Shown: piece after piece, positions 1,418 to 21,535 of the stretch
Numbering within the stretch: the first letter of the stretch is position 1
Layout of the letters: the number at the start of each line of letters is the position of its first letter
Virus record (IMG/VR): IMGVR_UViG_3300017758_000082
Coordinates: 1 to 28,468 of that record
Reading direction: 5' to 3' (one strand)
Source of the DNA: a virus
DNA: 28,468 bases
Program-made: the position numbers and the translations under genes
The notes under the pieces: generated by a model
What the model was told of the DNA's origin: nothing
Databases searched by the model: none
Seen by the model: the letters and a program-made list of their open reading frames with translations, nothing else

Positions 1418-1644
1418 TATCTGCTCACTTTCTTTTTATTTTTATCTTCAGGTTTATCTTTACGTAAACCTATTGTTAATAACCATAAGACTATTGATAG
1501 AAGTATAGCAATACCTACTATATCTTTTGCTGTTCCTGTGAGGGTTAGCCATGCTATAAAAAAACCTAGCAACGTAAACGTTTGCGCAATAGTTTCTTTA
1601 AGGATCTCTCCTACCCATGTAAATAATTTTTTAATATATTTCAT
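1417..1644 (-). CDS. Two-helix small membrane protein (75 aa)
   Basis: The N-terminal 18 residues are amphipathic and basic. Two predicted membrane helices follow, about 21-38 (TFTLLGFFIAWLTLTG) and 41-60 (DIVGIAILLSIVLWLLTIGL), and the tail is very basic (RKDKPEDKNKKK). A hairpin with both ends inside and a Lys-rich C-terminus is the layout of class II holins, so this is an alternative or additional holin. The start overlaps the stop of the exported 616-residue gene (TAATG), so the two are probably made together. No family is firmly recognised. Confidence 0.68.
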   Translation of the reverse strand: MKYIKKLFTWVGEILKETIAQTFTLLGFFIAWLTLTGTAKDIVGIAILLSIVLWLLTIGLRKDKPEDKNKKKVSR

Positions 1645-3494
1645 TAGCTACGTCTTATTCTAACGGGTACCACTTGCATACTAGCTATAATTTGCGAAGC
1701 TATGATCACTGGTACTACAACTTCTTGTGCTTTTTCTTTTTGATCGCTTGTCATATCTGATCCAATTTCTGCTAGATCTATTTGATCTATCTGTATGTCA
1801 ACGAATGAACCTATTGGATCAGCAAGGAATTGTTCTGTCTGTACCTCTGTCACTACGTCAGCAAGTGAGTAGTTTTCCACATCACTATTCTCTACTGCTC
1901 TCTCGACATACTCTTCTACAGCTTCACTAATAGCTTCATCTTTTTTTACAGCTGCAGCAATGATCTCCACGTCAGCTGCTTCTACTTGTAAAACTTCTGC
2001 AACTACTTCTACTTGTTCTTCTGTTAGTTCTTGTACATCAGCAATAGCTTCTTCAACAACAGCTTGCACAACTTCCTGTATTTCTTCTGTAGCTTGATCA
2101 AGATTTTGTACACCAATGTCATTTACTTCTTCAAGGACTTCAACAACTTCTTCTTCGGTAAGGTCTTGTACATACTCTTGTATTGCTTCTTGTTTAGATT
2201 CTTCATCAGTCTCCTCTGTTATTGGTAGATTCACAATGTCTTCTATTTGTGAAACTTCTTCCTGTATTTCTTCTTCAGTAAGATCTAAGGGTTCTGTATC
2301 TTCCACTCCTGGAGTGTCTCGTTTTGTATCTTCTTCAACAACTTCCTGTATTGACTCATCCAAAATTTTCTCATCATTCTTTTCATCTACAATCTCCTCT
2401 ATTTCATCTTGTATTGGTATCTCATCCACGATTTCGGTAACAATATCTTCCAAATCAAATTCAATAATCTCGAACTCAATAGGTTGTTCTTCAAACTCCA
2501 CCACTTCATCTTCAATAACTTCCTCTTTAGGTGTGTCGAGTATAGAATTATCATTCTTAGGAAGGATGTCATCCACATCTTCTTTAACTTCTTCTTCAAT
2601 TATTACCTCTTCCTTAATTATATCTTCTTCTTCTATGATCTCAACATCTTCCTCTAGAATCTCAATCTCTTCTTTAGGTTTAGGTATTTCACAATCACCA
2701 CGATCTATCTGTGCGTCAGTCATAAAACAACCGTATTCATTTTCATTATCTATACGTTCCTGATCTCTCTCTATAGTCCCATCATTAACGTCTGCCTGTG
2801 TGTATGTTTTATCAACACCTTCAACAACTATATCTACAATAATTTCTTGTGGTGTTGGAGGGGGTGGAGGAGGTGGAGGAGGTGGAGGTGGAGGAGGAGG
2901 TGGAACAGTTGTGGTTGTAGTTGTGGTAGTAGTGGTAGTAGATGTTGTACTAGATGTAGTAGTCACAGGGATCTCTACATACTGCCAGTACAGTGTGTCT
3001 AATACAGATATATCAGTTAATATAACTTCAAACTTTGTAATAAATTTATCTGTGTTAGCTTCATCATTGTTGTAATCAGTGAATGATTTGTAGAAATCAT
3101 CATACATAGTATTGCCATCTTCTCCCCAAGATTGTGCTGCTTTGTTTATAGTTTCATCTGTTTCATCAGAGTAGTAATACTTAACATCATAAGTATTATT
3201 TACTGCACCAACTAGAAATGCTACTTCATATACATCTTCTGCAAATTCAAATACATAAGTACCGCTTTGTAAAGCTAGTGAACAACCTGTAGTTCCATAC
3301 CTACCTTGTTCATTACAGTAAATATACGCAGCAATACTACCTCCGCTAATAGTTAAACCTTCTTGATAAGTGTCATCACTGAAATCTTCGTTGATGGTAA
3401 CTTCGTTAGGTACTTCCTCTGCGACTACAGGTATAGGTACTATAAGAAAAAGTACGATACATATACGTACTAGACTATTAAATTTATATAACAC
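1644..3494 (-). CDS. Exported, membrane-anchored Thr/Pro-linker acidic protein (616 aa)
   Basis: GTG start. Residues 1-25 form a signal peptide (hydrophobic core ICIVLFLIVPIPVV, cleavage predicted after VVA). Residues 26-175 form a beta-rich domain with Cys60 and Cys71, which could make a disulphide. Then come a Thr/Ser stretch (178-196, including 11 consecutive Thr) and 16 consecutive Pro (198-213). A short segment with Cys256 and Cys268 follows, then about 300 residues of Glu/Asp/Val/Ile-rich repeats. A hydrophobic segment (about 592-611) and a basic RIRRS end close the chain. This suggests a type I surface protein of the infected cell, anchored at its C-terminus, with a stiff Pro/Thr stalk. 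Thr-run to Pro-run stalks of this kind occur in actinobacterial exported proteins. Function is unknown: superinfection exclusion, adhesion or lysis control are possibilities, and a virion location is not excluded. The Shine-Dalgarno is weak. Confidence 0.8.
   Translation of the reverse strand: MLYKFNSLVRICIVLFLIVPIPVVAEEVPNEVTINEDFSDDTYQEGLTISGGSIAAYIYCNEQGRYGTTGCSLALQSGTYVFEFAEDVYEVAFLVGAVNNTYDVKYYYSDETDETINKAAQSWGEDGNTMYDDFYKSFTDYNNDEANTDKFITKFEVILTDISVLDTLYWQYVEIPVTTTSSTTSTTTTTTTTTTTVPPPPPPPPPPPPPPPPTPQEIIVDIVVEGVDKTYTQADVNDGTIERDQERIDNENEYGCFMTDAQIDRGDCEIPKPKEEIEILEEDVEIIEEEDIIKEEVIIEEEVKEDVDDILPKNDNSILDTPKEEVIEDEVVEFEEQPIEFEIIEFDLEDIVTEIVDEIPIQDEIEEIVDEKNDEKILDESIQEVVEEDTKRDTPGVEDTEPLDLTEEEIQEEVSQIEDIVNLPITEETDEESKQEAIQEYVQDLTEEEVVEVLEEVNDIGVQNLDQATEEIQEVVQAVVEEAIADVQELTEEQVEVVAEVLQVEAADVEIIAAAVKKDEAISEAVEEYVERAVENSDVENYSLADVVTEVQTEQFLADPIGSFVDIQIDQIDLAEIGSDMTSDQKEKAQEVVVPVIIASQIIASMQVVPVRIRRS
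2856..2963 (-). repeat. Low-complexity Thr/Pro codon repeat
   Basis: Degenerate trinucleotide repeats encode the Thr/Ser run (ACN codons) and the 16-Pro run (CCN codons) of the exported protein. Codon third positions vary (CCA, CCT, one CCC), so the peptide is conserved without an exact DNA microsatellite. On the plus strand, which is the transcription template, bases 2857-2903 contain no C and are almost entirely G with interspersed T and A, in runs of two to five G. Confidence 0.85.
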
Positions 3495-3499
3495 GGAAC

Positions 3500-3547
3500 T
3501 TACTTAGTTCCGCAACAACCACCACCGCAACAACCGTCACTACCCAT
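3500..3547 (-). CDS. Cys/Gly-rich micropeptide (15 aa)
   Basis: A 15-codon ATG frame encodes MGSDGCCGGGCCGTK. Four Cys are arranged as two CC pairs separated by GGG. It overlaps the end of the 93-residue membrane protein gene by eight bases and ends five bases before the GTG of the exported protein. The extreme composition is hard to get by chance in AT-rich DNA, and I recall similar Cys/Gly-rich ORFs at this position in related marine phages. Possible roles are metal binding, disulphide linkage to the exported neighbour, or a translated leader for it. No experimental family is known to me. Confidence 0.5.
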   Translation of the reverse strand: MGSDGCCGGGCCGTK

Positions 3548-3821
3548 GATCTATTCCTCTCCCGTTCATATCGTTATGTGTTTTACTATCAAGAATACCG
3601 AATGCCTGGTTGACTTCATCGTATGTCAGTTGTCCATCATTAAGATATTTTCTCGCTAAGATTTCTAGTACGTTAGCTACTCCAAGTAATCCTGCTAGTA
3701 ATGCAGAACTAAATACATCTATACCTACAAGACTGCCTGCACCTATAACACTTAATGCTTGTGCTATAAAGACAGCTATCATACGTTTAGATATATTCCA
3801 ATACAATTTGTAACCCTTCAT
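3540..3821 (-). CDS. Small membrane protein, holin-like (93 aa)
   Basis: A basic, amphipathic N-terminus (KGYKLYWNISKR) leads into two hydrophobic helices, about 14-32 (MIAVFIAQALSVIGAGSLVG) and 36-54 (VFSSALLAGLLGVANVLEIL). A polar C-terminal tail follows, containing NDGQLTYDEVNQAF (61-74), which looks like a degenerate half EF-hand. The AQALSVIGAG and small-residue packing are typical of phage holin-like proteins, which makes this the second or third holin candidate in the window. Its ATG overlaps the stop of the coiled-coil/TM gene upstream (TAATG). Confidence 0.7.
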   Translation of the reverse strand: MKGYKLYWNISKRMIAVFIAQALSVIGAGSLVGIDVFSSALLAGLLGVANVLEILARKYLNDGQLTYDEVNQAFGILDSKTHNDMNGRGIDHG

Positions 3822-4142: not shown

Positions 4143-4158
4143 GCTACTTAGCTACTTA
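4143..4158. repeat. 8-bp tandem repeat in intergenic gap
   Basis: GCTACTTA occurs twice head to tail in the 52-base gap between the 243-residue gene and the 44-residue gene. It is short and may be chance, but it lies just upstream of the possible -10 element. Confidence 0.45.
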
Positions 4159-4174
4159 ATATTTGTAGATCGTA

Positions 4175-4906
4175 TCATACAATATTTAATTTAATTTCTT
4201 CTAACACTTTTTTCTGCGCATTTGAAGCATGAAACTTTGCATATCTTTTTGCTAAAGGCACACCACTCCACCAAGCAGAACTTTCAGCACACGAACTTGC
4301 TATGTTGTATAGTTTTTCAGTTAAATGAAATCTATGTAATTTTATTTTTTCTTGTGTATTAAAGTTTACATAAGCTAAAGGTTCATCTTCTTCTATCTTC
4401 CATTCGTTTATACCTTCCCATAAATTTATTTCAAATCGTAAAGGTCTAAACCAACTGCCTATATCATATCTACCTGGAACAACAGCACCATATTTAGTAT
4501 GTTTTGCTTGATGAAAATAAGGTGCAGTCAAGGTTATATCTACAGATTTATCTGCAAAAAATATATGTGGCATATGATAATCAAACATCTTTTGTCCTGT
4601 TAATGTATCGTCTCTTAATATTTCTGAATGCATATGGTTTTTAGAAGTAGGTATTACTGGTGATTGTCTATTAGGTAAATAAAAATCAGTAAATTTACTA
4701 TGTGTTTGTATTGGATTTTTTATAACTAATGTATGCGTACCTAAATCTTGAAAAGCTGTACATTCATCAAATCCTGGCATATCTTTTTGTCTATTTTTAT
4801 TTTTGTTTTTAATTTTGCTTTTAAACAAAGACTGTGGTTCTTCATACATCCAAGAAAAATCATCTTCAGTTGGATGATTGAATGCAGAATAATAAATATT
4901 GATCAT
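4175..4906 (-). CDS. Marine-phage hypothetical protein coupled to a 2OG oxygenase (243 aa)
   Basis: No named family is certain. Visible features are a Lys-rich loop (KSKIKNKNKNRQK, about 29-41), a CTAFQDL stretch (about 49-55), HMPHIFF (about 110-116), and GRYDIGSWFRPLRFEINLW (about 145-163). A strand-like segment ending in HRFHLTE follows. Similar marine viral proteins with a conserved 'IGSWFRP' core exist as far as I recall, of unknown function. There is no signal peptide or membrane helix. Its ATG overlaps the stop of the 2-oxoglutarate oxygenase gene (ATGA), so the two are translationally coupled and may act on the same substrate, possibly as enzyme and target or co-factor protein; that is inference. 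Confidence 0.72.
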   Translation of the reverse strand: MINIYYSAFNHPTEDDFSWMYEEPQSLFKSKIKNKNKNRQKDMPGFDECTAFQDLGTHTLVIKNPIQTHSKFTDFYLPNRQSPVIPTSKNHMHSEILRDDTLTGQKMFDYHMPHIFFADKSVDITLTAPYFHQAKHTKYGAVVPGRYDIGSWFRPLRFEINLWEGINEWKIEEDEPLAYVNFNTQEKIKLHRFHLTEKLYNIASSCAESSAWWSGVPLAKRYAKFHASNAQKKVLEEIKLNIV

Positions 4907-5418
4907 GAAAAATCAAAGTTAACTAATACTCTTATAGGAGTATCTGATTGTGTAACTCCACTATGTAAACTTTTACCATCAAAAACTAGCAGACTATTTT
5001 GTACACTATCAAAAAATTTATTAGGTTTATAAAATTTAGTACCACCATTACAAGTTGTTAAATTATAAACTGCTGTTGTGTAACTATCTAATTCAGGATA
5101 ATCTTCATGTTGTTCATGCGTTATATTAACACCACTATTTGTGTATAAATTAGCTTTTATTCTTAAAAGATTAGTATGTTTTTTACCAACATAAGCACTA
5201 ATTGTATTTAATAAAGGAATAAACTCTTGAAATTGTGGACTATTTATACCTGTGTTTACATCATATAAACTGTGTGCAAACATAAAATCATCATCTTGTG
5301 TTGATAATTCTTTATGCAATGAAGTTGCGTAATGATACCAAGCAAAATAATTACCTGTTGTTATGTTTAATAAAGAATTGTAATTGTCGTCAGATAAAAT
5401 ATTTGTATGTAAATGCAA
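4903..5418 (-). CDS. 2-oxoglutarate/Fe(II)-dependent oxygenase (171 aa)
   Basis: Non-haem iron dioxygenases use a HxD...H facial triad for Fe(II) and a basic residue for 2-oxoglutarate. Here His104-Glu-Asp106 (QHEDYP), His152 (SLHSGV) and Arg163 (PIRVLVNFDF) fit in order and spacing. They sit on the expected strands, with NGGTKFY and NSLLVFDG in between, as in prolyl-4-hydroxylase-like enzymes. At 171 residues it is a minimal catalytic domain. The start is TTG, supported by an AAGGTGG Shine-Dalgarno four bases upstream; no ATG is available nearby. The neighbours are a fibre-region protein upstream and a coupled hypothetical downstream. Marine phages carry many such enzymes, and a role in hydroxylating a virion, host or sugar component is plausible but unshown. 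Confidence 0.82.
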   Translation of the reverse strand: MHLHTNILSDDNYNSLLNITTGNYFAWYHYATSLHKELSTQDDDFMFAHSLYDVNTGINSPQFQEFIPLLNTISAYVGKKHTNLLRIKANLYTNSGVNITHEQHEDYPELDSYTTAVYNLTTCNGGTKFYKPNKFFDSVQNSLLVFDGKSLHSGVTQSDTPIRVLVNFDFS

Positions 5419-5434
5419 GTTCCACCTTTTGTAT

Positions 5435-5896
5435 TTAGTATACTCCAGTATCTTCTAAATCACCAGTGTATAAATCCATAGTTAAAACAACCCAACCTGT
5501 TGTGTTATCTGCTTGATAGGCGTCTTCATCCCATCTACAATCTATTTCTGTTCCAACATCATCACCATCAATAGATACACCTTCACTAGATACAGTTGGT
5601 TTAGCTATAGGTGCTTCCCAATAACCTGTTGTTGTATTTAATACCCAACTAGGATATGGTTTTGGTTTGTGAAATAGATCATTGTCAGCGTCATACAGAT
5701 CACCTACACCAGGAAATCTTTTCTTAACGTTTTCATTATATGAACATTGGACCCATGTTGCTTCTCCAAAAGTATCAGTCAAAAATGTTTGTCCAAGAGT
5801 TTCTTGTTCATCTCCATTTTCATCTAATAAAACTTCATTAGCAACTACTGTTACTTGTTCTACTGTTCCATCTATTACTTTTGCAAAATGTGCCAT
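5435..5896 (-). CDS. Marine-phage tail/fibre-region protein (153 aa)
   Basis: Begins MAHFAKVIDGTVEQVTVVANE, followed by LLDENGDEQETLGQTFLTDTFG, then WVQCSYN, a FPGVGDLYD turn, and PYPSWVLNTTTGYWEAP. This order is a widespread small protein of marine phages and cyanophages, usually near tail fibres and often next to 2OG oxygenases. The closing WDEDAYQADNTTGW segment is also typical. Function is not established; a small structural or fibre-associated protein is likely. It starts at a TAATG overlap with the glycine-rich protein and is followed 16 bases later by the oxygenase. Confidence 0.75.
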   Translation of the reverse strand: MAHFAKVIDGTVEQVTVVANEVLLDENGDEQETLGQTFLTDTFGEATWVQCSYNENVKKRFPGVGDLYDADNDLFHKPKPYPSWVLNTTTGYWEAPIAKPTVSSEGVSIDGDDVGTEIDCRWDEDAYQADNTTGWVVLTMDLYTGDLEDTGVY

Positions 5897-6879
5897 TAGA
5901 AAGTTATTGTCCCATCTCCTGTAAATTTATAATATTTATATCCACCTGTTGTATATAAAGTTGGCGAACCTGTTGTACTAGCTGCGTCTGCTAATGTGTC
6001 AGAATATCTTAATAAGAAAATTCCTGAACCACCATTACCACCATTACCTGATGTTCCTGAATTATTTCCATACCCTGCACCACCTGCACCTCCACCTGAA
6101 CCTGTGTTAGCTGAAGCTGAACCACCAGTACCATAAGCACCTGAACCTGCACCACCTGAACCGCCACCTGCAGTACCTGTAAAACTTGCACCTCCGCCAC
6201 CACCTGCGTACTGACTACCTGAACCTGATGATGTTGCTGTTGCCCATGTAGAGTAAGCATTTGTTCCTGCACCGCCACTACCATGACTTCTCGAACCTGC
6301 GTTATTTCCTTTTGCACCTGCTGCACCGCCACCTGAACCATTGCGACCATCTCCGCCACCTGCAGTACCACCTTCGTGACCTACATTGTCATAACCAAAA
6401 CCGCTATCTTGAACTGCGATTAAAGCACCATCTTCAACTTGATAAGGTTGAGTTACGCCACCATGATTAGGAGAGTTACCATAAGCACCTCCGCCACCTG
6501 AACCACCTTGTTTGCTATTGTAAGTTCCTCCACCATTACAACGAGTTACTGTGACTCCTCCTATTGTGACTGTACTATCTGAACCTTTAGCATTACTACC
6601 TCCACCTGCACCAATATCAACTGTTATTGCAGCACCCTTAGCTGTAGCTATAGAACCAGTACGAACTTCTCCTGCACCTCCGCCACCACCGCCAGAAACA
6701 TTTCCGCTTCTACCGCCACCGCCGCCTGCAATAAGTACATACTCAATAACTGGACCTGTTTTAGCCCACTTACTATCGCTTAATAAATCTTGTTGTTCAT
6801 CTATAGAGAATATACCTTTATTACCTGTTGTTTCACTTTGCGCAGGTGCTGTATTTCCTATATATCCAAATTGTCCCAT
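5896..6879 (-). CDS. Glycine-rich tail-tip adhesin (327 aa)
   Basis: After a short N-terminal part (1-40), which probably anchors to the tail, IEYVLIAGGGGG opens a glycine-rich domain (about 46-292) built from GGGG, GSGG and GGAG repeats. It closes with IFLLRYSD. The C-terminus ends YKYYKFTGDGTITF, the standard ending of phage glycine-rich fibre domains. Such domains can form polyglycine-II sandwiches in host-receptor-binding adhesins (known for the T-even-like adhesin gp38); assigning that fold here is inference. A GGAG site nine bases upstream supports the ATG. The frame is clean and uninterrupted. It is the most likely receptor-binding or host-range protein of the window. Confidence 0.8.
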   Translation of the reverse strand: MGQFGYIGNTAPAQSETTGNKGIFSIDEQQDLLSDSKWAKTGPVIEYVLIAGGGGGRSGNVSGGGGGGAGEVRTGSIATAKGAAITVDIGAGGGSNAKGSDSTVTIGGVTVTRCNGGGTYNSKQGGSGGGGAYGNSPNHGGVTQPYQVEDGALIAVQDSGFGYDNVGHEGGTAGGGDGRNGSGGGAAGAKGNNAGSRSHGSGGAGTNAYSTWATATSSGSGSQYAGGGGGASFTGTAGGGSGGAGSGAYGTGGSASANTGSGGGAGGAGYGNNSGTSGNGGNGGSGIFLLRYSDTLADAASTTGSPTLYTTGGYKYYKFTGDGTITF

Positions 6880-6891
6880 CTTAAAAAACTC

Positions 6892-8103: not shown

Positions 8104-10092
8104 TCACACACCAAATTGGTGTATTCCCAATCTTCCAATACCAAGCGCACCTAATGATGTAACTTCTCCAGTTGCAGACGCTTGTCTCTGACCACGTACT
8201 TGTATAGTACAAAATACCATAGTAGATCCTAGCTTAGTAATCTCTTGTATAGGTAATGTAACATTTTCTACAATACCTCTTACTATCTCATCAGGTTTAA
8301 AGAGAGTAAGAGTTACTGATTTACCTTCTAATTTTTTAACAGCGTCAAATAATTTTTTACCTATACCAGGTATATTCTTAGCACGTTTACCTGGACGTTC
8401 TATACGATCAGATACGTTAATAGGAATACGTGCAATAATATCTTCAGGTTCAGGGAATGCACGATAGCTATAAGAATAAACTTCAGGACTAGCTGTTCTT
8501 CCTGAATTAGAACTTATAGTTATCTTTGCAACTAACCACCTGTTAATTACATTGATCATAGGAACTTCATTACCACTCTCTGCTGTCTCTATTTTTGTTA
8601 AGGTTGAAAAACTTGTAGCATTTGGATCTTCTAATGCGTCTAATTCTGTACTAAATTCAGCTAATACGTTAGAACCTGCGGGTATATCGTTAGTATAGAT
8701 ACGACCACCTATCCATTGTTTAGCTTGTGAAGTATAAAAATCTGCAGCAGGAAGTATTAGGTAACCGTCATCAACTAATGTGGCAGCTTCTTTAATTAGA
8801 CCTATACCTGCAACAATAAAAAATAATTTACCTTTAGCTATAGCTATACCTGTTACTTTACCTGATGTGCCTGTGTAATAAATATTTCTAGCGTAACCTA
8901 ATGTAGGTAAGTATATAGAATATAAATCTGTCTCTGTACCACTATCAACAATGCCAAAATATATTTGATCTCTTGTGTTAAAAAATGCAGTAGGACTTTT
9001 ATCTACTGTTGTATTGTTGTCACCAAATTCTTTAATCAATTGTCTATCATCAACTGTGTAAAGAACTCCGTCTGTTGCAATAGTAGCTCTGTAAACTCTG
9101 CCTATCTTACCGTCACCTGCTGATGTTTGCGATGTAGAAAAAAAGATAATACCATTACTCTCTGTCATATCTACAATGTCTTCACCTTCAATGTAAGTTT
9201 GACCTGCTAATACAAGACCTGATGTTAGATCATCTTTAATAGCGTATATGTAACCATCATCAGCTGCTGCTAATATTACTGATCCACCATCTACGACGCT
9301 TGTCCACAATGATCCTGAAGGTAGATCTTTTATTGTACCTGGTGATCCTGTACCGTCTAATTCAAGTAACTTACCATTAGAATCTGTTGCAATAAGATAG
9401 TTCTTAACATTAAACAGTCCTGTATAAAGGTGACTAGAGTGTACGTTCATATAGTTGGACCAACCACCTGCTATGTTATCTGCGTCAAGTTTTCTAACAA
9501 TACTATCTGTACCATCGTTTAATGCTACGTACAGTATGTGTCCTTCAAGAACCATACCTGTAATATTAAAACTTGATCCTGCTGAATAAGGATCTGATGT
9601 TGTCCAGGTATCTCCACCGTTTGATGAATAATAAACATTGTGTCCTTGACCAACGTACAATACATCTTCATGTGCAATAATTTCTTGATAAGCACTTGCA
9701 CTAGCTCTGCTTGTTATCGCTGTGGTATCATTTAATAACTCTATAGAGTATGCTTTGCCACTGTCATCCGCATTCTTGAATACATCTATACCTTTGCTAT
9801 CAAAAAATCTTCTAAAGTCATTAGTGCCTTGTTGTCTACTGTGTGCTTGATCTAAACCTGCACCACCTGAAAAATCAGATCTTGCAAATGATTGACCAAA
9901 CTCTGCTCTAAATTCTTCAGGTACTTGTGCTGTGTTAACCTGTTGCGCAGATAATGGTGCGGTAGTAATAGTTAATTCTCTTCCTGGTGCTACTGCTAGA
10001 CGTAAAAGTATATCAGTAATGCCATCAGATATTTGTGCCTGGTATCCAAAAGCTAATGGATTTGAAACGTTAGACGTTGACGGTAAAGGCAT
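8104..10092 (-). CDS. Beta-propeller tail (nozzle/hub) protein (662 aa)
   Basis: Residues about 130-450 are a series of strand-rich repeats such as HEDVLYVGQGHNVYYSSNGGDTW. SSNGGDTW at 156-163 is an Asp-box (S-x-D/N-x-G-x-x-W type), typical of beta-propellers. The C-terminal part (about 451-662) has a mixed fold with ITNR-like strands and a final glycine-rich GALGIGRLGIHQFGV. In short-tailed phages the nozzle protein (T7 gp12 type) has a propeller-like platform and directly follows the adaptor gene; that order is seen here. Function as the tail nozzle or tubular tail protein B is therefore likely, but the sequence similarity is not obvious. The ATG overlaps the stop of the adaptor gene (TAATG). 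Confidence 0.72.
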   Translation of the reverse strand: MPLPSTSNVSNPLAFGYQAQISDGITDILLRLAVAPGRELTITTAPLSAQQVNTAQVPEEFRAEFGQSFARSDFSGGAGLDQAHSRQQGTNDFRRFFDSKGIDVFKNADDSGKAYSIELLNDTTAITSRASASAYQEIIAHEDVLYVGQGHNVYYSSNGGDTWTTSDPYSAGSSFNITGMVLEGHILYVALNDGTDSIVRKLDADNIAGGWSNYMNVHSSHLYTGLFNVKNYLIATDSNGKLLELDGTGSPGTIKDLPSGSLWTSVVDGGSVILAAADDGYIYAIKDDLTSGLVLAGQTYIEGEDIVDMTESNGIIFFSTSQTSAGDGKIGRVYRATIATDGVLYTVDDRQLIKEFGDNNTTVDKSPTAFFNTRDQIYFGIVDSGTETDLYSIYLPTLGYARNIYYTGTSGKVTGIAIAKGKLFFIVAGIGLIKEAATLVDDGYLILPAADFYTSQAKQWIGGRIYTNDIPAGSNVLAEFSTELDALEDPNATSFSTLTKIETAESGNEVPMINVINRWLVAKITISSNSGRTASPEVYSYSYRAFPEPEDIIARIPINVSDRIERPGKRAKNIPGIGKKLFDAVKKLEGKSVTLTLFKPDEIVRGIVENVTLPIQEITKLGSTMVFCTIQVRGQRQASATGEVTSLGALGIGRLGIHQFGV

Positions 10093-16768: not shown

Positions 16769-19700
16769 TTATCTCCTACCTGGATTGTACTTAGGAAAAT
16801 TAGTACTGTCAGCAACATCTAATGGTCTCCCGTATTTATCTTCTAGTTTTGGTAAACCTGCTTCATATTCTGATTCTAGTTGTGAAACAAGTCCTGATGG
16901 TATACGTCTATCTTTACCATTGTAACCTTTTTCTTTTAGTTTAGTAGATACATACATATCTCTTTTGACATTGTATATCCAATCGTTCATACCGAACCCA
17001 TCTTTGACAGTATCTAATGCTGAAATAGCACCTTCTTTAATACTCTCAAACATTGGTCCGAGTAACTTATTGTTCTTTGCTTCTTCAACTATAGGATTAG
17101 CTGCTTCTTTATATATATCGAATGTACCACTTACACTACCTGCTAAGGTACCTTGATCTTCAGGAGATCCATATAGCTTTTCAAAAGTTGTGTCAGTTTT
17201 GCTTGGATCATAAATGTCTTGTGCAACATCTGCGACTGCACCACCTATAGTTTCAGTAGCATTTCCTACACCTGTTGTCTTTGAAACTAAAAGATCTAAC
17301 ATAACTGGTCCTAATACTGCAGCGTCAAATAGATCAAACCCATTACCTAATGTTTGGAGTAGACCATTTCTTGCTGCTACTTTTGCTACATTTTCTGCAG
17401 GTACTTGTGCAAACAATTCATCCATAACTTTTGTTGCATGATTTTGTACTACGTTATCTTGGACATCACCAAATATAGATTGTCTTGCAATAAGTTCTCT
17501 AAGCTCGTCAAAGTTTTGTAAAAATACACCATCAATTGCTGTAGGATTTATTTCACTAAGATTAAAAAACCGTTCGTCATTAATATTTAATGTACTATAC
17601 AACTCTAAATACTGTTGTTTTTTTATATCAGTAAGTTCTTCATTTTGCATAATTGTCTCTATAGGTATAAAATTAGCAATTTGTTTAATACTGTTATCAT
17701 CAAGATCATTAAGACTTGTTGTACCCATATTTATTTGATCAAGTAAAAATAAAGTATCTTCATTTAATTCTGTTGCTTTAATATCGTAGGTTGTTTTTCT
17801 TGGTATTCCTGTACCAAACTTGTCACCTGGATCTACTATACCGAAAACATCATGGAAATTATTTCTTTGACGACCACCGCCTGTACCTGCAACTATCTCT
17901 ATACCGCTTTCGGATAGAGATTTTAATAAAGCTATATCTGCGTATTTAGTTGGATTTCCTCCTGGTATTGGAGTGCTTCTAGTTTGTCCATTCATCTGAT
18001 TTAAAAAGTTTATAAGGTCTCTATCTCCATCTTTAAAACCAAAAGATTCGTAAACTAAATCATCTACTAACTTACTTCCACCATTTTCATTAGGATTATA
18101 GTCTCTAAAGTTACCATCTAGATTTTTTGCTTCATAGCGTAGTGCATGTTTTTGTCTAATTAGTTCAGCAGCTATAGCCATATCTTGTAGGAGATTATCA
18201 TTTATGCTGATTCCATTCCCACCTTTTGCAATATATTCATATCCCATTTCCAATGGTAAATCTTTAAAGAACTCTGCTTTAAGTTGTGGATAATCATTTA
18301 GATACTCTGTAATATTTTTAATGGACAACAATTCAGAAATAGCTTGATGTGAACCTAGTGAAGCAGGATCTACTTGCGTTGCAGCAAATTCAAACATATC
18401 TTCAAATTGTATTCTTTTATATGGAAAAAACTCATCTGCTTTTGCAGTAAATAAAACGTGTCCTGCTGTAGTTCGATTCGTATGGTACCATTCGGGAGTA
18501 ACAAATGTTGTACTATCAAAAGTACGATCAACTTTTTTAATATACTGAAATGCTTCATTATATAGTTCAGTTGCTATTGCTTCTCTTGGTCTAATCATTC
18601 CTGCCATAATATCTTGCATATTACTAAAGTTTATTTTAAATTCATCTTTGCCTTTAAGAATATTTTTAATAACAACTTCCATACCTTCATCGGTACTCAT
18701 AATATTTGTATAATATTTTTTAATTGTTTCTCTTGCAGGACCATCTTTTCTTGCGTCAAGTAACATTTGAGAAACTATTCTATCTGCTTCTTCAGTTCTT
18801 ATAACTTGAAAATCTCTACTTGTTGCTGCTTTGTGTAAATCTTCTATTAAATAATCAAGTGACTCTTCTGATAGCACATGTTCAGGACTAGAGTTCTGTA
18901 TAACCTGTCCTAATAGTTTTGTAACATTAGGATTATTAGTTTGTCTTATAAGTGGCATGTCTGTATGTAATATTGAATTTGGTTCTGCATTGAATTTTAT
19001 TTGCATAATACCTGGATCAACTAACAATGTGTTTTCATTAGTTACACTTTTTAAATAGTTTCCTTCTTTAGGATTCACTACTACTTCTAAACCAATTTCA
19101 CGTAAATCACGATTCATCATGTCTATTAAGTCTGTATCATCTACATCTAGAATATCTTGGTGATTTAATATTTGATATACTGCGTCGAACACTTCATTAT
19201 TCATAGCACTTATTGTTCCTGGATTATGACCACCTGTTGCATATGAAGCTGCAAGAAATGGATTTGAAGTTGTGTACATATAATTTAAACGTAGTTGTTG
19301 GTTTCTATATTTTCTAGGATCTAACCAGTCAATATTATTTTCGTAGGTAATACGGTTTAAAAATCCTTGCATAGTATTTTCAAATTCCATCATAGGTGCA
19401 GTTGTTCCAAAATTTGTAGCAGGTAAATATGTTTGCAGTATGTCTAAAACTTTTCTACCTTTTGCGTTAAGACCATTACCACCGTGATAAACCATCCCAC
19501 TTAAATTACCGTCAGCAGTTTTAACTAGCTTTTGTGTATCTAACATAGCTTCAGGCATAGCAGGTGAATTGTTTTTATAGTAATCCCATGCAGGTGTATA
19601 TATCTCTTCGGGAAATGTTTTAGTATAAAACTTGTTATTTTTATTTCTAATAGATTCCATCGCATTACCTACTGCAGGATTGTTATTTTTTTGATACTCA

Positions 19701-21535
19701 ATAAGATCATCAACTGCAACCTCTAAACCTTCTTTAGCAATGATTGTATTTTGGGGATCTAAAAAAGAATAAAGTGCAGCGTCAGTATCAGCACTTTTTA
19801 AATAATACAAATTGTCATCTGCTTCTTCCACCATTACTCGTTCAAATGATTCTGAAATTATTGTTTTAAATTCTTGACTGTTAATAATTTTATCTGCATT
19901 TTGTTGCATAGCAACAATAACTGGTGTTATTTGCATGCCTTCGTTTAATTTTCTTTTTAATAAAGATCTGTAATATCTTTTAGTATGTTCTGTAATTAAT
20001 TTTGTAACGCGCTTTTTACCTTTCTCAGTTAGGTCTGCGTCAAAAATAAACTCGCTGTTCATCATTTGATTTCTTGTAGGTACTACATTGCCTTCAATAT
20101 CTGCAGAACCTAATGTAACTATTGTTGGGTTTTTTATTGCAGAGTGCATAATATCTATAAATATAAAGTCAGATCTCATTTGATCCATAGCATTGAATTT
20201 TATATTATTGCCATAATCCATTTTACCCATTTGTCTAATGCTATCAATCATTGCTTTGTTTTGACGATCAATAACATTGTTACCTTCTATAGGTATTATT
20301 GGTTGACCAACTTGTTCACGTACTACATTACTACCGTTTATAATATCAATGTTTCGTTTTGCAGCAGCTTGTGTTTGTATTTTAAGATTTTCAACATCTT
20401 CAAAATCATATACAGCTGTGCCTTTAATTATTGTAAACATATTAGATTTATCAAAATATTTGTTTTTTAAAGAAGTTGTTAATGCGTCTTCTACAAACTC
20501 TGTGTGTCCAAATGCAAGTTCTGCTGATCCGTCAATAACATCTTCAAGTTTTATCCATTGATAAGATAAAGCGTCATCTCCTGCTTTTGGTTTCCATTCT
20601 GTAAAAGTAGATTTTATTTGTCCGTTGACTACTTCATCATTTTGTAAATCTTTTATAATCGTAAACGCACCACCAACGTTTACACCACTAGCTGCTCTTG
20701 CGTCCCAATCATATCTATTGTATTTAATAGGTAAAGGTTGTGAAGCTCTAATAAATTTACTCTCTAAACCAACTTCTTCAACTGCTTCACGCAATGCTTC
20801 TAATGCAAAAATTCTAGAAGCACTTCCGCTTTCGTTTGGTATAAATTTACCATCAATATTAAAATAGAACTCTTGCAAACGTCCTACTTCATTAGGATCA
20901 ACAACACTTTTAATTATTTTTTCATCAGACATTTCTGCTTCAACTATGCCACCAGGTAACGCAAACAAATCTCTATGTGGACCACGCTTGCGTTTAATAA
21001 CAAGAAGTTCTATAGTCCCATCTTGTGCTTCTTTAAAAATTACATTGTCTGCTGTGTTCTGACGATCTTTAAATTTCTCATATACAAAGTCATTGTTAAC
21101 TTCTGCAACATCGTCAGATAGTCCTTCGTCTAATAGCAAACTTTCTTTTGCAAATCTTGAACTTTGAGGATCTCCTTCGTAATTATAGAATGCTGAAGCT
21201 GTATCATCATCAAGATCAAATCCCATGTTTCTCCAAAAGCTACTACTGTATGCTGATTCTAAAGTTTTATCTAATAAAGTAATAGGTACATTTATTTCGT
21301 CTGATAATTGTTTTAAAGCGTCAACCATTTTTCTACCAATGCCTTGACCTTGTGCTTCAGGTTTTAAATAAAATGATTCTATATATATTTCATTACCATT
21401 GATTATATTTCCACTTGTTAAATCAAAATGTAAACCGCTGCCATCTCCTGCTTCACTAGCAGTACTGTCTAAAAACTCTCCGTATTTTTCTTTGAGATCA
21501 TCAAGAAGTTGCATAACTTTATCTTCATTATCCAT
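16769..21535 (-). CDS. Multidomain virion-region protein: GNAT + Nudix + ADP-ribosyltransferase-like (1588 aa)
   Basis: Domain order: (a) residues about 40-115, a GNAT acyltransferase with motif A QGQGIGRKM (62-70) and a closing FWRNMGFDL; (b) residues about 163-350, a Nudix hydrolase with G195-x5-E201 and R249-E-A-V-E-E-V-G256-L, the catalytic box split by 40 extra residues; (c) about 680-860, an ADP-ribosyltransferase-like domain with YHGG (His684) and YTTSNPFLAASYA (Tyr754 onward), the H and Y parts of an H-Y-E type active site, with the third residue not assigned. The remaining 700 residues are charged and helical with no recognised fold; a hydrophobic stretch lies at about 1395-1415. Size, context and domain mosaic resemble phage 'polyvalent' or ejected proteins that act in the newly infected cell. 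ATG overlaps the previous stop (TAATG). Enzymatic activities are predictions. Confidence 0.78.
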   Translation of the reverse strand: MDNEDKVMQLLDDLKEKYGEFLDSTASEAGDGSGLHFDLTSGNIINGNEIYIESFYLKPEAQGQGIGRKMVDALKQLSDEINVPITLLDKTLESAYSSSFWRNMGFDLDDDTASAFYNYEGDPQSSRFAKESLLLDEGLSDDVAEVNNDFVYEKFKDRQNTADNVIFKEAQDGTIELLVIKRKRGPHRDLFALPGGIVEAEMSDEKIIKSVVDPNEVGRLQEFYFNIDGKFIPNESGSASRIFALEALREAVEEVGLESKFIRASQPLPIKYNRYDWDARAASGVNVGGAFTIIKDLQNDEVVNGQIKSTFTEWKPKAGDDALSYQWIKLEDVIDGSAELAFGHTEFVEDALTTSLKNKYFDKSNMFTIIKGTAVYDFEDVENLKIQTQAAAKRNIDIINGSNVVREQVGQPIIPIEGNNVIDRQNKAMIDSIRQMGKMDYGNNIKFNAMDQMRSDFIFIDIMHSAIKNPTIVTLGSADIEGNVVPTRNQMMNSEFIFDADLTEKGKKRVTKLITEHTKRYYRSLLKRKLNEGMQITPVIVAMQQNADKIINSQEFKTIISESFERVMVEEADDNLYYLKSADTDAALYSFLDPQNTIIAKEGLEVAVDDLIEYQKNNNPAVGNAMESIRNKNNKFYTKTFPEEIYTPAWDYYKNNSPAMPEAMLDTQKLVKTADGNLSGMVYHGGNGLNAKGRKVLDILQTYLPATNFGTTAPMMEFENTMQGFLNRITYENNIDWLDPRKYRNQQLRLNYMYTTSNPFLAASYATGGHNPGTISAMNNEVFDAVYQILNHQDILDVDDTDLIDMMNRDLREIGLEVVVNPKEGNYLKSVTNENTLLVDPGIMQIKFNAEPNSILHTDMPLIRQTNNPNVTKLLGQVIQNSSPEHVLSEESLDYLIEDLHKAATSRDFQVIRTEEADRIVSQMLLDARKDGPARETIKKYYTNIMSTDEGMEVVIKNILKGKDEFKINFSNMQDIMAGMIRPREAIATELYNEAFQYIKKVDRTFDSTTFVTPEWYHTNRTTAGHVLFTAKADEFFPYKRIQFEDMFEFAATQVDPASLGSHQAISELLSIKNITEYLNDYPQLKAEFFKDLPLEMGYEYIAKGGNGISINDNLLQDMAIAAELIRQKHALRYEAKNLDGNFRDYNPNENGGSKLVDDLVYESFGFKDGDRDLINFLNQMNGQTRSTPIPGGNPTKYADIALLKSLSESGIEIVAGTGGGRQRNNFHDVFGIVDPGDKFGTGIPRKTTYDIKATELNEDTLFLLDQINMGTTSLNDLDDNSIKQIANFIPIETIMQNEELTDIKKQQYLELYSTLNINDERFFNLSEINPTAIDGVFLQNFDELRELIARQSIFGDVQDNVVQNHATKVMDELFAQVPAENVAKVAARNGLLQTLGNGFDLFDAAVLGPVMLDLLVSKTTGVGNATETIGGAVADVAQDIYDPSKTDTTFEKLYGSPEDQGTLAGSVSGTFDIYKEAANPIVEEAKNNKLLGPMFESIKEGAISALDTVKDGFGMNDWIYNVKRDMYVSTKLKEKGYNGKDRRIPSGLVSQLESEYEAGLPKLEDKYGRPLDVADSTNFPKYNPGRR

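Follow-up and report, generated by a model that had tools for sequence, protein, structure and literature searches.

A widespread phage gene pair predicted to encode an exported stalk protein with exchangeable heads and a two-transmembrane partner, with a possible role in lysis

Results and Discussion

The locus and its gene neighborhood

The window, meaning the whole stretch of DNA analyzed here, is a 28,468-base IMG/VR virus record in which nearly all likely genes lie on the minus strand. The gene of interest (positions 1644–3494, minus strand) is a single open reading frame (ORF) with a GTG start, and its 616-residue product is predicted to be an exported stalk protein with a lectin-like head. 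Its stop codon overlaps the start (TAATG) of a second gene (1417–1644, minus) for a 75-residue protein with two transmembrane (TM) segments and a predicted N-in/C-in topology; this gene was missed in an earlier interpretation of the letters alone, here called the sequence-only reading. Further downstream come small basic ORFs, a putative wall enzyme of the DUF5675 family (231–794, minus; PF18925, E 1e-28), one homologue of which is annotated as an L,D-carboxypeptidase/transpeptidase, and a hydrophobic, holin-like protein of 63 residues recognized from its sequence (28–219, minus). On the upstream side lie a holin-like membrane protein of 93 residues (3540–3821, minus; weak match to the holin family phrog_443), tail/fiber-like genes, a Gly-rich protein (PF21722), the major capsid protein (MCP; PF17236, SU10_MCP) and large internal proteins. 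As the stalk gene shares the strand of the structural genes and lies downstream of them, it is probably expressed late.

A series of tiny, very basic ORFs, for example MPYSKTGKKKKYSSKRKKKMTK, is found between the two-TM gene and the DUF5675 gene (948–1420, minus), together with an 83-residue phrog_7595 protein. A tiny Cys-rich ORF, MGSDGCCGGGCCGTK, sits immediately upstream of the stalk gene (about 3499–3546, minus). At the DNA level, the fiber-like region at 4149–6885 is unmatched in relatives that have both of its flanks in common, and it is a hypervariable island. A 662-residue protein (8104–10092, minus) carries an Asp-box-like motif, SSNGGDTW, and is possibly a sialidase-type propeller; for comparison, sialic-acid islands have been reported in Actinomarinales phages (PMC7771536). 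The N-terminus of a 1588-residue internal protein (16769–21535, minus) reads as a GNAT acetyltransferase, LKPEAQGQGIGRKM, and is followed by a Nudix-like box (LPGGIVEAE...REAVEEVGLE); NCBIfam matches to this protein are weak only, and it may be a polyvalent injected protein.

Architecture of the stalk protein

The stalk protein opens with a predicted signal peptide (residues 1–25; 3420–3494, minus), LYKFNSLVRICIVLFLIVPIPVVA, whose cleavage end, VLFLIVPIPVVA, precedes EE and whose best TM-like segment has a dG of about −1.4. No lipobox Cys follows it (PVVA, then EE), as would be expected of a bacterial lipoprotein, and the protein has no C-terminal LPXTG ahead of a hydrophobic segment and basic tail for sortase anchoring. 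Residues 26–180 (2955–3419, minus) form a CBM-like beta-jellyroll head, defined by AlphaFold2, Foldseek and cassette exchange and modeled at a pLDDT of 84.8 over about residues 27–175. A Thr11-Val-Pro16 stalk, TTTTTTTTTTTVPPPPPPPPPPPPPPPP (residues 186–213; 2856–2939, minus), comes next and varies in length among relatives. The signal peptide, the beta domain and the stalk had all been proposed in the sequence-only reading and are borne out.

In the structural model, the part beyond the head consists of a small domain, an acidic stretch that is disordered, a helical domain and a helix at the C-terminus. The small conserved domain (residues 214–268; 2691–2855, minus), with the motif EGVDKTYTQADVNDGTIERDQERIDNE..GCFMT..RGDC, contains invariant alignment columns and has a pLDDT of about 80. 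The mostly disordered acidic linker (about residues 274–402; 2289–2675, minus) leads to the helical domain (about residues 407–560; 1815–2276, minus; pLDDT about 80–88), and Foldseek found no PDB match for the C-terminal/helical part at E ≤ 0.001. While the acidic stretch described earlier is present, its portrayal as a repeat region was overstated: apart from the stalk codons, the only repeats are imperfect tandem ones of two to three copies at 2585–2674. The figure of 300 acidic residues also has to be corrected, to 162 Asp and Glu in the whole protein, of which 132 follow the stalk.

The C-terminal signature (1647–1745, minus), DMTxDQKEKAQEVVVPVI...RR, has a basic end and is nearly invariant across relatives, and the alignments indicate conservation far beyond the needs of a plain anchor. 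A hydrophobic C-terminus with a basic end, VVVPVIIASQIIASMQVVPVRIRRS, is present as previously described, but it is a marginal TM segment only, with an apparent insertion energy of about +1.8 kcal/mol. The family range is +1.3 to +2.5 kcal/mol on this translocon scale, which was re-implemented for this analysis and gave −1.75 for a glycophorin control. Given these energies, insertion of the C-terminus probably requires help, which the two-TM partner may give.

Distribution of the family

The stalk-protein family is undescribed and is common in marine viral contigs: 75 family loci were found by the head and at least 560 by the C-terminal part. When the whole protein, the C-terminal domain and the two-TM protein were used as tblastn queries, no match was obtained among 50,697 records of named phages, and a megablast search with the first 12 kb of the window was negative as well. 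Pfam, PHROGs and NCBIfam hold no fitting family for the stalk protein, and the PADLOC HMMs gave no match, i.e. no known anti-phage system. Weak Pfam matches (PRIMA1, DUF2252 and others) were low-complexity and under cutoffs, and were discarded.

Seventy-eight distinct complete proteins of 515–1102 residues were surveyed, with signal-peptide-like starts scored by a simple heuristic. Such a start is conserved in 77 of the 78. Thr runs of at least five residues are present in 75/78 and Pro runs of at least five in 51/78, and the fraction of Asp and Glu ranges from 0.19 to 0.31. These relatives indicate that the architecture is not due to chance. The Thr/Pro/Glu-rich low complexity might have been that of an ordinary gene with no selected function, or of an assembly artifact, but such an explanation has virtually no chance of being correct; it is refuted by conservation, as the architecture is kept in hundreds of contigs and C-terminal columns are invariant.

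Fold and exchange of the head

The head has a beta-jellyroll fold in common with CBM61 and CBM29 modules (Foldseek E 3e-5 to 3e-4, TM score about 0.50–0.57). This likeness is at the level of fold only, with identity at just 7–13%, and the model suggests that the head may bind glycans. It matched no CBM family in Pfam and gave no sequence-profile match in the PDB.

In five close relatives (L093, L101, L097, L090, L089), the DNA matches the window up to codon 30, does not match over the head, and resumes at about codon 180–207. The flanks of the exchanged head are about 80–94% identical between relatives. This pattern indicates that the head is swapped cleanly between the signal peptide and the stalk. 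The 78 complete proteins fall into two larger groups of head types and a few small ones, and FN3 domains are added in some family members.

The two-TM partner and the lysis region

A short ORF starts −8 to 0 from the stop of the stalk gene in 128 of 130 loci and encodes a two-TM protein in about 123; in about seven loci (L019, L020, L021, L023, L033, L074 and one more), the selection rule took another short basic ORF. The two-TM protein follows the pattern KE[TS]..Q.FTL.G...WLTLTGSA..I.G....W L.T..R, and its basic N- and C-termini suggest that both ends face inward. Although the two-TM family lacks conserved stretches suited to an alignment-based scan, single-sequence scans from divergent members led to loci with a stalk protein immediately upstream, the one exception being a chance match. 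At the sequence level, the stalk gene and the two-TM gene constitute a widespread undescribed pair, present in nearly every locus examined. A hydrophobic N-terminal extension of roughly 90–110 residues is seen on the two-TM partner of some phages (L200–L204).

The pair is kept with both SU10-type (PF17236, window) and HK97-type (PF05065, contig G060:C11) capsids. Its occurrence alongside an unrelated capsid type makes a virion part unlikely and, together with the signal peptide in 77/78 proteins, upholds the earlier assignment of a cell-surface layout. It could be argued that the protein is a tail fiber or decoration protein and that its N-terminal hydrophobic segment is no true signal peptide, given that the gene adjoins tail-fiber-like genes and that CBM-like folds are common in fibers. 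We consider this very improbable in view of the cleavage-like motif that accompanies the signal-peptide layout, the membrane partner whose gene overlaps, and the recurrence of the pair with unrelated capsids.

The survey of the downstream region covered 80 distinct loci whose sequence extends for 3.5 kb or more past the pair. A wall enzyme was found within 3.5 kb in 74 of these (DUF5675 in 68, amidase in 6), and 67 of the 74 carry a holin-like gene as well, either a small gene or an r1t-type holin after the wall enzyme. With a wall enzyme in 74/80 loci and a holin-like gene in 67/80, the pair occupies a lysis-region position beside endolysin and holin, as would LysZ- or spanin-like proteins. 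Of the other six loci, three (L203, L204, L060) have, right after the two-TM gene, a holin-like ORF resembling the 93-residue protein of the window, one (L035) has an ORF that reads as lysozyme/transglycosylase-like, and two (L200, L202; 2/80) have neither a wall enzyme nor an evident holin. The overlap of a two-TM gene with a one-TM gene also matches the LysF1a/LysF1b type, with the single TM segment marginal; the cytoplasmic bulk of the one-TM protein does not, as the signal peptide would place about 590 residues outside. Searches of Pfam, NCBIfam and PHROGs yielded nothing that would link the pair by homology to LysZ, LysF1 or spanins.

Hosts and stalk style

The 25 named-phage MCP relatives of the window (24–31% identity) are actinobacterial phages wherever a bacterial host is stated. 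No WhiB was found in 22 related viral records, and the actinobacterial host assignment hence rests on the MCP relatives, the style of the Thr runs, and the contigs of G060 and G023. When homologues were sought in genomes as well as in phages, a search that the sequence-only reading had advised for Actinomarinales, the genome matches of the C-terminal profile were all to contigs of phages, located in MAGs and in G060. A C-terminal domain acting as a common host sorting signal was ruled out on the same grounds. The domain is carried by two genomes of one 42-member order with genomes of 0.6–1.1 Mb; one of them, G023, is an Actinomycetota MAG, and we infer that this order is Ca. Actinomarinales. 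In G060, contig C11 is a phage of 29,719 bases and 35.4% GC with an HK97 capsid, a WhiB of 215 residues, an amidase, an r1t holin and a stalk gene that spans the contig ends. The phage reported from Ca. Actinomarinales SAG AG-919-G14 is 29 kb with 35.5% GC and an enlarged WhiB (PMC7771536); on size, GC content and WhiB, the two are probably the same or close. The family is also found in gamma- and flavobacterial MAG bins, and MAG binning is weak as host evidence. Overall, the hosts of these phages are probably marine, Actinomarinales-type actinobacteria. In contig G023:C30 (58,316 bases), two copies of one phage segment lie about 43.9 kb from each other, which is what a circular or concatemeric phage assembled within a MAG would give.

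Runs of eight Thr residues are present in 34/42 genomes of G023's order; for two control orders the figures are 12/40 and 11/42, and there a reversed-pattern control was as frequent as Thr8. Many of the runs in G023's order belong to extracytoplasmic proteins, where they take the form T(n)-[LVI]-PP, and very long Thr runs in such proteins are a hallmark of the order. Like the stalk protein, these host proteins combine signal or anchor segments with beta/FN3-type domains and T(n)-[LVI]-PP linkers; unlike it, they lack the C-terminal domain and have no Pro8 runs. In genomes of the order, the Thr6-X-Pro6 stalk is confined to phage contigs, and Pro8 occurs only in MAG G023, which contains phage contigs, and is absent from the other 41 genomes. 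Host mimicry, which had been suggested for the Thr/Pro stalk as a whole, is therefore supported for Thr but not for polyPro. EF-P is encoded in 37/42 genomes of the order, from which ribosome stalling at Pro16 would be expected to be relieved. PMT was rejected as a candidate for O-mannosylating the Thr stalk: it was above the cutoff in 0/42 genomes of the order, and the C. glutamicum control was positive.

Possible functions of the pair

We tentatively interpret the stalk and two-TM proteins as a late envelope module that aids lysis, in a LysZ/spanin- or LysF1a/b-like manner; this is the reading that we consider most probable, at somewhat less than even chances. The large stalk protein would be exported by Sec, and its CBM-like head would be held away from the membrane by the Thr/Pro stalk and acidic linker. 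The conserved helical part would reside at the cytoplasmic membrane, as would the weakly hydrophobic helix at the C-terminus, next to the two-TM partner; the stalk protein would be N-out, C-in and the partner N-in, C-in. The head may grip the wall or lipoglycans, and the pair's membrane part, set off together with the holin, may disrupt the envelope or set the timing of its breakdown. Swapping of heads would match the phage to envelope glycans that vary among its host strains. Architecture, pairing, position and head swapping are seen in the sequences; topology, glycan binding, late timing and the part played in lysis are deduced from them. Against a role in lysis, the ectodomain is far larger than in known lysis proteins, and the gene lies between tail-fiber-like and lysis genes, a position that in itself also fits a late surface protein. 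The marginal C-terminal TM segment, the lack of a family match to known lysis proteins, and the two loci (L200, L202) with neither wall enzyme nor evident holin likewise count against it.

The main rival is a surface shield, in which the anchored lectin head binds or masks receptor glycans and blocks superinfection or the sticking of progeny to debris, with the partner anchoring the head or itself blocking DNA entry. T4 Imm is a small two-TM protein that blocks DNA entry. Export, the host-style Thr stalk, the variable CBM-like head and the absence of virion logic across capsid types are all consistent with such a shield, and our data do not decisively separate exclusion or masking from lysis. 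We nevertheless regard the shield as rather unlikely: position and pairing follow the lysis module, late expression gives little time for exclusion, and head type does not covary with the neighboring fiber region, a weak test as this region is hypervariable everywhere. An adhesin that joins cells, or infected cells and surfaces, late in infection, with effects on aggregation, particle attachment or predator interaction, would also suit the layout of signal peptide, lectin/FN3 heads and stalk. The lysis-linked position and the lack of a link to dispersal genes make it improbable. The superinfection block or altered aggregation put forward in the sequence-only reading finds no direct support; the conserved location next to wall enzyme and holin, and the obligate two-TM partner, point first to a lysis-stage role at the envelope.

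More broadly, the pair may represent a new class of envelope module, a proposal that we hold with similar reserve to that of the lysis role. The class would combine an exported lectin, a host-style stalk, cassette heads and an obligate two-TM partner, and would serve unrelated lineages of streamlined marine actinobacterial phages by tuning envelope breakdown or receptor masking to host glycotype. The pair is widespread and undescribed, and the phages that carry it are linked to marine actinobacteria that are abundant and uncultured. If the proposal is true, a glycan-gripping, recombining component is added to lysis (or exclusion) in hosts that have no outer membrane, a poorly understood step. 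The genes would then be markers for recognizing such phages in metagenomes, and the swapped heads ready-made probes for host surface glycans. The phages encode a Pro16 run; the putative host lineage has no Pro8 in genomes of its own.

Comparison with known systems

Three known systems resemble the pair in part. As described in PMC13056207, LysZ of the Corynebacterium phages CL31 and Cog is a 177-residue protein with a single N-in/C-out TM segment and a proposed action on lipid-anchored glycans. Like the stalk protein, it is a membrane protein of an actinobacteriophage and lies mostly outside the membrane, and its proposed action on envelope glycans would complete lysis. The stalk protein differs in its size (515–1102 residues), signal peptide, lectin head, stalk, predicted N-out/C-in topology and two-TM partner. 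In about half of the phages of M. smegmatis, the lysis cassette encodes a one-TM protein (N-out/C-in) and a two-TM protein (N-in/C-in), and lysis is impaired when lysF1b is deleted (PMC13056207). LysF1a and LysF1b of F1 mycobacteriophages are, as here, products of overlapping lysis-region genes with N-in/C-in two-TM and N-out/C-in one-TM topologies; LysF1b is a mostly cytoplasmic protein of 124 residues with a 22-residue outside part, whereas the stalk protein would lie nearly all outside (PMC13056207). Finally, gp33 of the Gordonia phage DumpTruck is a lysis-cassette protein that, at 87 residues, has neither lectin head nor stalk, but shares with the stalk protein a predicted signal peptide and one TM segment in an N-out/C-in arrangement (PMC9671378).
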